Below are positions 3,792-63,330 of a stretch of 64,000 nucleotides of DNA, one piece after another. How positions within the stretch are numbered: position 1 is the stretch's first letter; the number at the start of each line of letters is the position of its first letter. The translations under genes and the position numbers were made by a program. Location: NCBI GenBank assembly GCA_904396495.1, contig CAJFOJ010000019.1:1-64000 (forward strand), given 5' to 3'. This stretch comes from an uncultured Oscillospiraceae bacterium (lineage in GTDB: Bacteria; Bacillota; Clostridia; Oscillospirales; Ruminococcaceae). Under the pieces are notes generated by a model. That model was given only the letters and a program-made list of their open reading frames with translations. It made no database searches and was not told the origin of the DNA.

Positions 3792-4061
3792 GCCGGTATC
3801 AAAAAAGTAGTCTTTCAATATTTATTAGTTTTTAAGATGCAGCACATAAATTATTTATGAAGTGGGGTTATAATAACTACAAACAAGGATAGAGGAGATA
3901 AATTCCCCACCGTTTTGGCAGTATTTACTAAGGTTTCGAGCTTTTTTTACAGTTTATACACTAATTGGAGGGGAAAATAGGGTAGAATATGTTCACCACA
4001 AGTATGGATGGGTAAAAAGATAGGAATGAAGCCTCTTTTTCCCATAAAAGGCGGGTTTTCG

Positions 4062-4934
4062 TTGTTTGGTTATATCAAGCCCTTTAAACCAGAACTGAAA
4101 ATCAAGGAATTTGATACTTATCAGGCTGTGTACTGCGGGTTATGCCATCAGTTGGGGACGGCGTTTGGACCGTTCGCAAAAATGACCCTCAGTTACGATT
4201 TTACCTTTGTGGCCATTTTGTCTATGGCGCTGCGAGAAAAATTTTGCGGTTTTCAGAAGACCCGTTGTATGGCCAATCCTCTCAAAAAAAAGGCCTGTGC
4301 TGTTCCCGGCGAAGACATGGAATTTGTCAGCAGTTGCGCTATGGTGATGTTGTATTACAAGGTGAAAGACAACATCTACGACAGTGGGTTTTTAAAGAAA
4401 ATTGGATGTTATCTTTTGCTTCCTTTCGCTTCTTCCGCCAGGAAAAAGGCGCTTAGCCGTTATCCGCAGTTGGATGATGTTTTTGGCGGTATGATGAAGG
4501 ATCAATTTGCATTAGAGCAGAAAAAGACCGTCAGTGTGGATGCAGCGGCGGAACCTACCGCCAAAGCTTTGCAGGCGGTATTTTCCATGTTAGGGGATGG
4601 AGAGAATGAAAAACGGGTCTTATCCAGGTTTGGCTACCTGCTTGGACGCTGGGTCTATCTTTTAGACGCGCTGGACGATCTGGAAGATGACGCAAAGACG
4701 GGTTCTTATAATCCATTCCTTCTGAAGTTTTCCGTCGGTTCCCTGAGTGAGAAGATGAAAAAAGAGATTCTCGATTACGGAAAGGGAACGCTTAATATCA
4801 CCGTTGCCGAACTGGGGACTACCTATGAGCTTTTGGAGCTTAACCGGTATAAAACGATTTTAGACAATATTATTTATCTGGGTTTAAAGTCTTCGGCGGA
4901 CAGCGTTCTTTCTGGAACAAAAGATAAAAAGTAA
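4062..4934 (+). CDS. DUF5685 family protein
   Basis: I recognise this as a DUF5685-type protein of unknown function. It opens with LFGYIKPFKPELK, has the cysteine motif YCGLCHQLG at about residues 25-33, several further cysteines, and a C-terminal stretch LLDALDDLEDD followed by GSYNPF. The acidic DDxxDD run followed by a basic/Gly/Asn segment is reminiscent of all-helical isoprenoid-synthase folds, but that is only a resemblance. I choose the TTG at 4062, preceded by GGCGGG, because the protein family normally starts at this point; an ATG at 4008 would add 18 unconserved residues without a good ribosome-binding site. A DnaJ-domain gene and a membrane protein gene follow on the same strand. 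Confidence 0.75.
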   Translation: MFGYIKPFKPELKIKEFDTYQAVYCGLCHQLGTAFGPFAKMTLSYDFTFVAILSMALREKFCGFQKTRCMANPLKKKACAVPGEDMEFVSSCAMVMLYYKVKDNIYDSGFLKKIGCYLLLPFASSARKKALSRYPQLDDVFGGMMKDQFALEQKKTVSVDAAAEPTAKALQAVFSMLGDGENEKRVLSRFGYLLGRWVYLLDALDDLEDDAKTGSYNPFLLKFSVGSLSEKMKKEILDYGKGTLNITVAELGTTYELLELNRYKTILDNIIYLGLKSSADSVLSGTKDKK

Positions 4935-61570: not shown

Positions 61571-61699
61571 TTTGTGATTTGGCGATCTGCGTTTGTTGAT
61601 TCTAGGTGCAGGCAATGCGCTTCTGTTTGTATTTTGCGTTCATAAGCGGCGTCATACAGGGGATACTAATGGCAAATCCAAATCAAAGGGGAATGAGCC

Positions 61700-62092
61700 A
61701 TGAATAAACCTGTATTTTTAAAAAGCAAGCAGTGCGGCAATATTGTGGAGGTCATCTGCTCTGATGGCGAAAACGCCATCACCTGCTGCGGAGAACCCAT
61801 GGAAGAAATGATTCCCAATACCTCAGAAGGGGCGGCGGAGAAACATCTTCCGGTCATCGAGGTAAACGGAAATAGCGTTACGGTCAAGGTCGGAAGCGTT
61901 TTTCACCCCATGACCGAGGAGCACAGCATCACATGGGTATGTCTCGAGACAAAACAAGGGTGTCAGCGCAAAAAACTTCTCTCTAAAGCTGATCCGGTTG
62001 CAGTTTTTTCCATCACGGATGAGGACGAACCGACAGCCGCCTATGCCTACTGCAACCTACACGGTTTCTGGAAAACGGATTGCCGGAAATAG
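61700..62092 (+). CDS. Superoxide reductase (desulfoferrodoxin family) with incomplete N-terminal iron site
   Basis: Reduces superoxide to hydrogen peroxide in anaerobes without making oxygen. The 130-residue protein has the full two-domain length. The C-terminal catalytic iron site is complete: His in AEKHLPVIE, His in SVFHPMTEEHSI (two), and Cys and His in YCNLHGFWK. The N-terminal desulforedoxin-like domain keeps three of four cysteines (QCGN and TCCGEPM); the first position, normally Cys, is Ser in FLKSKQCG. The rubredoxin-like iron centre is probably lost, leaving a one-iron enzyme. A 56-residue protein gene follows 9 bases downstream. Confidence 0.9.
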   Translation: MNKPVFLKSKQCGNIVEVICSDGENAITCCGEPMEEMIPNTSEGAAEKHLPVIEVNGNSVTVKVGSVFHPMTEEHSITWVCLETKQGCQRKKLLSKADPVAVFSITDEDEPTAAYAYCNLHGFWKTDCRK

Positions 62093-62101
62093 GAGGCTGC
62101 T

Positions 62102-62272
62102 ATGAGTACTTTTTATGAAAATAACCCGGAACTGCGGGAGTACTTTGAATCGCTTCCCATTTCGGTCAAAAACCGGATATTAGAGGCCCGTATCCCAATC
62201 TATACGGTGGAGCAACTGCAAAAGGCGGCGGACGCCATGCAGGCGGTTAACCATGAAAACCAGTATTATTAA
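62102..62272 (+). CDS. 56-residue protein A, function unknown, co-transcribed with superoxide reductase
   Basis: It starts at an ATG 5 bases after AGGAGG, directly behind the superoxide reductase gene, and ends before a strong terminator. The protein is acidic and probably helical. It contains REYFESLPISVKNRI followed by YTVEQLQKAADAM, and has no membrane segment or cysteine. A second protein of the same length, encoded at 63001-63171 on the other strand, shares the EYFxSLP core. Function unknown; a redox-stress link is suggested only by the neighbour. Confidence 0.8.
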   Translation: MSTFYENNPELREYFESLPISVKNRILEARIPIYTVEQLQKAADAMQAVNHENQYY

Positions 62273-62277
62273 TAAAG

Positions 62278-62320
62278 ATTCGCCTGGAATTGGATTTTGC
62301 TCCAAACCAGGCGAATTTTT
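62278..62320 (+). terminator. Terminator of the superoxide reductase operon
   Basis: ATTCGCCTGG (62278-62287) pairs with CCAGGCGAAT (62307-62316) and is followed by T residues. Confidence 0.85.
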
Positions 62321-62329
62321 CCTTAAGGG

Positions 62330-62359
62330 TTGAAAAAAAAACAGTTTTTATAGTATAAT
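62330..62359 (+). promoter_or_regulatory. Promoter of the lipoprotein gene
   Basis: TTGAAA (62330-62335), an 18-base spacer and TATAAT (62354-62359) lie 25 bases before the start codon. Confidence 0.6.
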
Positions 62360-62383
62360 AATGCATATCGAAAAATTGGAGAG

Positions 62384-62881
62384 ATGAAATTGAAAAGATT
62401 TTTTACACTTATAGTTTTATCACTGGCCGCATGCCTAGCTTTTGCGTCCTGTTCCGGGTCGGAGGGAGTTTTGCGGGGGGTGGAGATGGGGATGACCTCT
62501 TCGGAGGTATTCGCCGTTGAGGAAAAACGCGATGACAGCGGCGCTGCTGTCACGGGGGACAACCAACTGGTTTACCACGATATAGCGGTGTACGACATCC
62601 CATGCTATATCACTTACTTCTTTGGGGTGGACGGAGGGCTTTATAAGATTTCCTGTGTTTTTGATGAGGCGACCGAAGAAAATTATTTAAGCTTAATAGA
62701 GGCTATTACTGACGAATATGGCGAAAGAGAGGATTTGCCCGATTCTTATGGTAATCTCTGCGAATGGAATAGCAAAAATCTCGTCATACGGCTCACCTTT
62801 ATTCACGGAAATGAGAACATCAGCGACAGCCTTGCCCTTACTTATTCTGTCCCCACGGACGATAGTGCTTCCATAGAATAA
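62384..62881 (+). CDS. Small secreted lipoprotein, function unknown
   Basis: The 165-residue protein has a signal peptide and lipobox (AFASC, Cys at residue 23), so it should be lipid-anchored outside the membrane. The mature part is acidic and probably an alpha/beta domain: LRGVEMGMTSSEVFAVE resembles the start of small SmpA/OmlA-like or DUF lipoprotein domains in which 'GMT..EV' begins a helix. The ATG at 62384 is very close to GGAGAG; a TTG at 62390 would have better spacing. It is monocistronic. Its function is unknown. Confidence 0.75.
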   Translation: MKLKRFFTLIVLSLAACLAFASCSGSEGVLRGVEMGMTSSEVFAVEEKRDDSGAAVTGDNQLVYHDIAVYDIPCYITYFFGVDGGLYKISCVFDEATEENYLSLIEAITDEYGEREDLPDSYGNLCEWNSKNLVIRLTFIHGNENISDSLALTYSVPTDDSASIE

Positions 62882-62936
62882 TCTCTTTTTGGCAGAATAC
62901 ATTAACCGAAAAAATGTGAAGATAAAAAGAAATAGG

Positions 62937-62968
62937 ATGAGGCGGCTTCAATCAGCCGCCTCATGGTT
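62937..62968. terminator. Terminator between the lipoprotein gene and protein B gene
   Basis: ATGAGGCGGCT (62937-62947) and AGCCGCCTCAT (62954-62964) pair perfectly over 11 bp, followed by GGTTTTG. Confidence 0.8.
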
Positions 62969-63000
62969 TTGTTGTCCCCGATGGGAATGTCCTAGCGGCG

Positions 63001-63171
63001 TTAGTTTCGAAGTCCTGCTACAAAATCCTGCATTTCCTCAAAAGAGCCGATATCCTCGTGGACAATTTTTTGTTGAATCTCTCGTGGAAGGGAGTGGAAA
63101 TATTCATAGCTGGTCAAATCCTGATCCAACAGATCGGTCAGGCATAGATGCTGGTCTAAAGTGCCTCTCAT
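63001..63171 (-). CDS. 56-residue protein B, paralogue of protein A, function unknown
   Basis: On the minus strand an ATG (63171-63169) seven bases after AAAGGGA opens a 56-codon frame ending in TAA at 63001. The protein has an acidic N-terminal half (TLDQHLCLTDLLDQDL) and then SYEYFHSLPREIQQKI and SFEEMQDFVAG. EYFxSLP, the following Ile/Val-x-x-Lys/Arg-Ile and the later Glu-x-x-Gln align with protein A at 62102-62272. No membrane segment. A plus-strand open frame over the same bases (62889-63275) has no homology-like pattern and is rejected. Confidence 0.75.
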   Translation of the reverse strand: MRGTLDQHLCLTDLLDQDLTSYEYFHSLPREIQQKIVHEDIGSFEEMQDFVAGLRN

Positions 63172-63330
63172 CGCTATTCCCTTTCTTCCGTCTTGAACTA
63201 AATTTGCGCTACCAGCGCAATTTTAGTGTCTGCAAAAGATGCCGTCTCCATCCTGTTAGTTTCAGGAAATGCTGATCCGTTAACGATAAGGGTGTTCAGC
63301 ATCAAAACTGCGTAAACCTAGATATAAAAT

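Follow-up and report, generated by a model that had tools for sequence, protein, structure and literature searches.

A family of small clostridial proteins with promoter-like signals that suggest production in the developing spore

The 64,000-nucleotide stretch of DNA from an uncultured Oscillospiraceae bacterium that was analysed here, called the window below, carries genes for two small proteins, A and B, and it is practically certain that the two are homologous and come from one real family. This family of proteins of about 55 residues, carried by spore-forming gut bacteria, is unnamed so far, and a literature search, chiefly of open-access papers, found no description of a small-protein family with the motif YFxSLP. 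Its members are probably small, mostly acidic, cytosolic helical proteins of spore-forming Clostridia, and the promoter-like signals upstream of their genes suggest that they are made in the developing spore and are not stress regulators. The genes concerned and their terminator-like hairpins are:

61700..62092, + strand: sor, superoxide reductase (desulfoferrodoxin), 130 residues, Pfam matches above the cut-off
62102..62272, + strand: protein A, 56 residues, family member, E 3e-20 with a profile built without A and B
62274..62320, + strand: terminator-like hairpin 3' of A, RNA fold -25.5 kcal/mol, z -5.2
62937..62964, - strand: terminator-like hairpin 3' of B, 11-pair stem with 7 G-C pairs
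63001..63171, - strand: protein B, 56 residues, family member of another subfamily than A, E 5e-5 with a profile built without A and B
L037 1441-1659 (contig C29 of the same genome), - strand: protein C, third copy in this genome, E 0.0047 with the first profile and 6e-11 after iteration

The initial annotation had given the coordinates, strands and lengths of A and B correctly, as well as the Glu-x-x-Gln segment common to both (VEQLQ in A, EEMQ in B). Their equal length of 56 residues is a coincidence; the 81 non-redundant members of the family span 46-117 residues (median 55). Good ribosome-binding sites had been claimed for both genes, which holds for A (AGGAGG, strong), whereas that of B (AAAGGG) is only moderate. 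Co-transcription of A with sor is very likely, as had been proposed, because A begins 9 bases past the sor stop codon and a strong hairpin follows A, the inner loop of which exceeds the length limit of the terminator pattern scan. The sor product scores above the cut-off for two Pfam families, Desulfoferrodox (E 1.8e-21) and Desulfoferrod_N (E 2.8e-6). B is the sole gene on its strand in that region and has a terminator-like hairpin of its own. Prodigal has a default minimum gene length of 90 nt, so the statement that gene callers would miss A and B is probably overstated. Between A and B lies a gene for a 165-residue lipoprotein-like protein (62384-62881, + strand) with no Pfam match at E up to 1 and with a sigma-70-like promoter (11/12) at 62330-62359. 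The first 307 bases of a Candidatus Avimicrobium faecavium contig (L003 1-307) are identical to window positions 62097-62403, and the identity ends at 62404, within the lipoprotein gene, reflecting either a rearrangement or an assembly artefact.

The kinship of A and B is detectable already in a single BLASTP comparison (E 2e-4, 8/22 identical), and their local alignment score was equalled or passed by 2 of 5000 shuffles of B. An HMM of 27 relatives from which both had been removed recovered A (E 3e-20), B (E 5e-5) and no other of the 1193 stop-to-stop ORFs of at least 30 codons in the window. The relative of A in Marasmitruncus massiliensis is 64.6% identical over 48 residues, and eight further genomes from the taxonomic family have relatives of B at 54-70% identity (E 1e-9 or better). 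Between B and seven relatives, second codon positions are 81-93% and third positions 30-52% identical, and dS exceeds dN wherever dS is computable, the remaining comparisons being saturated. The reading frames of the family are thus conserved as protein. The initial annotation had named a lack of further homologues as what would speak against its proposal; homologues were looked for and many were found.

The proposal of a small protein family was right, and the family is larger than guessed. With a 79-row profile, 126 of the 297 genomes from the window's taxonomic family have it, spread over 76 of the 126 genera. The first profile, with 29 rows, detected members in 68 of 295 genomes sampled across the order (E up to 0.01) and in 34 of 341 sampled across the class (E up to 0.001). 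Copy number reaches 7 per genome; several copies are frequent and sometimes stand in tandem. Counting copies in the genome of origin, a check suggested at the outset, gave three: A, B and C. C is flanked by ORFs resembling an AraC-type regulator, DUF3793 and flavodoxin (judged by eye), which would be a redox or iron setting. In the largest array seen (genome G113), five members lie on the same strand and an A-type gene directly adjoins a B-type gene. The nearness of the two genes in the window may be an echo of such an array, though here they face each other. Of 115 distinct ORFs, E was below 1e-6 for 111, and removal of near-copies left 81. In a tree of the 111 rows, the details of which are unsure because it rests on only 59 columns, a supported split parts A from B and C, and B and C fall into different groups; A, B and C thus appear to be old paralogues rather than products of a recent duplication.

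Among the 81 non-redundant members, net charge is negative in 69, neutral in 7 and positive in 5, and membrane segments are absent, no 19-residue stretch having a mean hydropathy over 1.6. Three- or four-helix folds are predicted: the AlphaFold2 models, made from four sequences each, have three helices in A (mean pLDDT 81) and four in B (83). Fold searches with these two models gave nothing convincing and no prominent known fold; A was aligned with 2l09 (asr4154 / PCP_red-like; Z 4.9, 54 residues, 2.5 A, Foldseek E 5.6) and B with 2fi2 (SCAN; Z 4.9, 52 residues, 3.2 A, Foldseek E 1.1). PDB sequences searched with profile A1 (29 rows; L020 and copies identical to A left out) gave a best E of 0.31. 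A and B had no match over the cut-off or with a convincing E-value in Pfam, NCBIfam or PHROGs. For the 79 members, where the tables hold best E-values rather than cut-offs for later members, nothing in Pfam was better than E 1e-4 among the matches listed, and the best NCBIfam match listed had E 0.008. The best Pfam match (E 1.1e-4) was to OmdA / YdeI (PF13376), to which 9 of the 79 have a weak similarity. Assignment of A to this family was rejected, with 14 bits where the cut-off is 25.6 and only 22 residues covered, and B did not match it.

An ATACTA-like box was noticed upstream of many members, and the upstream regions were scanned with sigma factor consensus letters. With the ribosome site removed and 108 members included (near-copies, B and C among them), a sigma-F-like consensus at 9/10 or better was present in 31/108 members against 3/284 neighbour ORFs, with dinucleotide shuffles giving 2.1 per 108, and a sigma-G-like consensus at 10/11 or better in 14/108, against 6/284 neighbours and 1.1 in shuffles. 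The sigma-A consensus, scanned in the same way, was not enriched (11/12 in 0/108 members vs 11/284 neighbours). Scans for sigma-E and sigma-K gave no enrichment upstream of members, and sigma-B-like sites at 10/12 or better occurred in 3/79 members vs 5/279 neighbours. For sigma-H, 22/108 members had a site, compared with 17.3 in plain shuffles; here, as in the sigma-W scan, the ribosome site was left in.

Motif finding from random seeds led to the same type of signal. In 77 of the 81 members (those with 115 upstream bases present, A, B and C excluded) the de novo motif was GGAAATACTA, with a likelihood ratio of 111 from 60 seeds, against 47-53 for three shuffled sets and 76, for an unrelated motif, in 77 neighbour upstreams, each control set having been given 25 seeds. 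A GNATA box that played no part in the search ends 14 bases further upstream (decamer fixed in 55/77), and this box together with GGAAATACTA fits the forespore sigma factors. According to passages of PMC3789822, sigma-F promoters have a conserved G ahead of the -10 and sigma-G promoters a conserved A behind it. Within the last 60 bases, a window picked after the site positions had been seen, a decamer score of at least 6 was reached by 32/77 members vs 7/279 neighbour ORFs and a score of at least 5 by 44/77 vs 17/279, with a model trained on the same 77 upstreams that it scores; the neighbours, the SASPs, sor, B and C were outside the training. In a separate run of the motif search, 36 of the 51 sites scoring over 5 end 15-21 bases 5' of the start codon. 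Member start codons were set by ribosome-site score within a limited distance of the domain. The ORFs used as neighbours are mechanical longest ORFs from the first start codon, and the neighbour control may be lowered because many of them perhaps lie inside operons or are mis-started, a fault of which the shuffles are free. Family-wide, promoter-like elements of the forespore (sigma-F/sigma-G) type stand upstream of the genes well above controls.

As a control with known forespore genes we used SASP genes, described as sigma-G dependent in parts of PMC3533761 and PMC3789822, and the outcome was mixed. In 30 SASP upstreams from the same taxonomic family, the box often lies further up (T/G-N-ATA, 14 bases, ATACTA), and with the family-trained decamer 2/30 reach a score of 6 in the last 60 bases. 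A two-box model over 120 bases gave a score of at least 6 in 12/30 SASPs, 55/77 members and 25/279 neighbours, and of at least 8 in 2/30, 37/77 and 6/279, respectively. Conversely, a SASP-trained model gave a score of at least 6 in 19/77 members vs 9/279 neighbours (Fisher 5e-8); this model was the 45th of 150 EM runs, picked for showing ATACTA or ATAATA, and the better runs had found the element CAAACGC in the leader. This element lies between promoter and ribosome site in 22 of the 30 alpha/beta SASP genes (L189-L218), in none of 286 neighbour ORFs and in no family upstream, and is perhaps a leader signal of SASP mRNAs.

In the window, the elements found are:

61640..61668, + strand: predicted forespore-type element 5' of sor, TCATA, 14 bases, GGGGATACTA
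63224..63253, - strand: possible forespore-type promoter of B, GGATG, 15 bases, GCAGACACTA

The predicted sor element ends 31 bases before the sor start. It has a decamer score of 7.6 with the model trained without A, B and C and again 7.6 with the SASP-trained model, and it ranks second in the two-box model among the 55 window ORFs of at least 120 codons. The top forespore-type score among these 55, 9.8, belongs to a DUF5685 protein (4008-4934, + strand; PF18937, E 1e-79). The element of B ends 52 bases before the B start and depends on the model, scoring 8.9 in the family two-box model against 2.5 in the SASP-trained one, and the forespore-type promoter of B is uncertain. C scored 8.2 with the decamer and 4.7 with the SASP-trained model. 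No forespore-type element of its own was found for A with the two-box and SASP-trained models, and no sigma-70-like site upstream of sor or of B. The sor element, the start of A 9 bases after sor and the hairpin behind A suggest a single transcription unit for sor and A, which may be expressed in the forespore. Given the forespore-type element of sor itself, a link to oxygen defence inside the forespore is possible.

The family tends to occur together with alpha/beta SASPs. Among 90 genomes, one per genus, it is present in 41/63 SASP-positive vs 5/27 SASP-negative genomes (Fisher 6.5e-5), and among those at least 90% complete in 30/47 vs 2/17. A logistic model with completeness and genome size gave p 7e-6 for the association. 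Five SASP-negative genomes have the family, two of them 98-99% complete. With SpoIVA the association was weaker in the taxonomic family (114/249 against 12/48, p 0.01), and in the class sample, with its 54 hand-chosen family-negative genomes, it was not significant (22/26 family-positive vs 40/54 family-negative, p 0.40). In all of these tests the genome lists were compiled by hand and shared ancestry was ignored. The genome from which the window comes encodes SpoIVA and a single alpha/beta SASP.

Neighbourhoods of the family vary among the neighbours listed, which were mostly judged by eye from ORF starts, and in this set no conserved partner gene, toxin or integrase was recognised beside it. 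Adjacency to spoIVA was noticed from coordinates and then inspected in five genomes: in G780 a family gene follows spoIVA directly; in G289, G178 and G160 it diverges from a two-gene unit that includes spoIVA; and in G758 the distance is one gene. A gerA-gerAC pair is found 2.5 kb from the five-gene array of G113. The M. massiliensis relative of A starts 650 bases after a sigF-like gene, which follows spoIIAA- and spoIIAB-like genes (best models SigF, E 5e-69, and SpoIIAA, E 1e-27, neither match reaching the model cut-off). The regulatory or stress function suggested by the initial annotation is unsupported as stated; promoter type, co-occurrence with SASPs and some of the neighbours point to sporulation.

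From these signals we infer that the family is likely to be expressed in the forespore, with sigma-F and/or sigma-G switching on its genes, and we would give roughly even odds that this extends to B, from its own promoter, and to A, from the promoter 5' of superoxide reductase, in which case one operon would deliver an oxygen-defence enzyme together with A. Our leading explanation, held with a little less confidence than an even chance, is that the members are forespore-made minor spore proteins switched by sigma-F and/or sigma-G that would stay in the spore core, the conserved face of the YFxSLP helix cap packing against or binding a partner. Core location, partner binding and biochemical role are, like the expression, read from sequence. 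The same promoter evidence would serve forespore-made regulators or adaptors that are not structural, each paralogue binding and adjusting one partner such as a sigma factor, a protease or a germination protein. CsfB/Gin of Bacillus, a small protein that adjusts sigma-G in an anti-sigma role, would be the model. Several old subfamilies maintained together in one genome, up to 7 copies per genome and the conserved, surface-like motif YFxSLP would suit such adaptors, but among the contexts listed the family has no constant partner gene at its side, and small, patchy, multicopy genes suit spore-core proteins equally well. We regard adaptors as rather unlikely, and a role as minor spore-core proteins is the more likely of the two.

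That A and its relatives are vegetative stress or redox proteins tied to superoxide reductase is improbable. A very likely shares its transcription unit with sor, C sits between AraC-like and flavodoxin-like ORFs (by eye), and in C. difficile, according to parts of PMC11980386, transcription of the sor operon starts from a PerR-controlled sigma-A promoter, which counts against the forespore reading. However, the tie to superoxide reductase drawn in the initial annotation does not extend to the relatives of A in L004 and L005, beside which no sor is seen (by eye). The counts of sigma-A (11/12 in 0/108 members vs 11/284 neighbours) and sigma-B-like sites (10/12 or better in 3/79 vs 5/279) also stand against vegetative expression, as does the lack of a sigma-70-like site upstream of sor or B. 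Small size, patchy spread and several copies per genome could belong as well to parts of a mobile or toxin-antitoxin system, which we consider very improbable: searches of viral contigs with three single proteins gave no relative, the arrays are made up of the family itself, and the one match in a phage collection (39% identity, E 1e-3) lies in an unverified faecal scaffold. This record (L136, MT837406.1) looks like a bacterial scaffold, because ORFs next to the family member resemble a translation GTPase and HemW (by eye).

Minor spore proteins made in the forespore are our preferred reading. Strict gut anaerobes rely on spores to pass through air, and the family, with its forespore-type promoters and its presence in 126/297 genomes, supplies definite candidate genes for tests in anaerobic spore formers. 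It seems also that promoter type combined with small-protein homology can tie a short ORF to a process even where family libraries give it no name. Somewhat more tentatively, the family could be the counterpart in clostridia of the minor SASPs, a big unnamed forespore-made family that is divided into old subfamilies, includes tandem arrays and varies together with the alpha/beta SASPs, and the sor-A operon would here pack oxygen defence into the spore.

The minor SASPs of Bacillus (SspH-SspP, Tlp) are, like this family, short, patchy and present in one to several copies per genome. Pfam contains minor SASP families; A and B match no SASP family in it at E up to 1, and neither minor nor alpha/beta SASP families are among the 25 Pfam families listed for the 79 members. 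Sigma-G dependence of SASP genes, as described in parts of PMC3533761, agrees with the promoter type proposed for the family. The same source, in the passages concerned, has most minor SASPs missing from clostridia, whereas the YFxSLP family is common there. Alpha/beta-type SASPs (PF00269) co-occur with the family and differ from it in sequence, neither A nor B matching them at E up to 1. The promoter layout is similar, with TCATA-N14-GAGGATACTA in the SASP gene of L191 and TCATA-N14-GGGGATACTA before sor, while SASP genes have a longer leader with CAAACGC (22/30, against 0/81 family upstreams). The sigma-G oxygen-defence genes of C. difficile described in passages of PMC3789822, namely sodA, the rubrerythrin CD2845 and the catalase cotG, provide a precedent for oxygen-defence enzymes made in the forespore. 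Superoxide reductase is not one of these; in C. difficile, sor lies in the PerR/sigma-A rbr operon, according to parts of PMC11980386.
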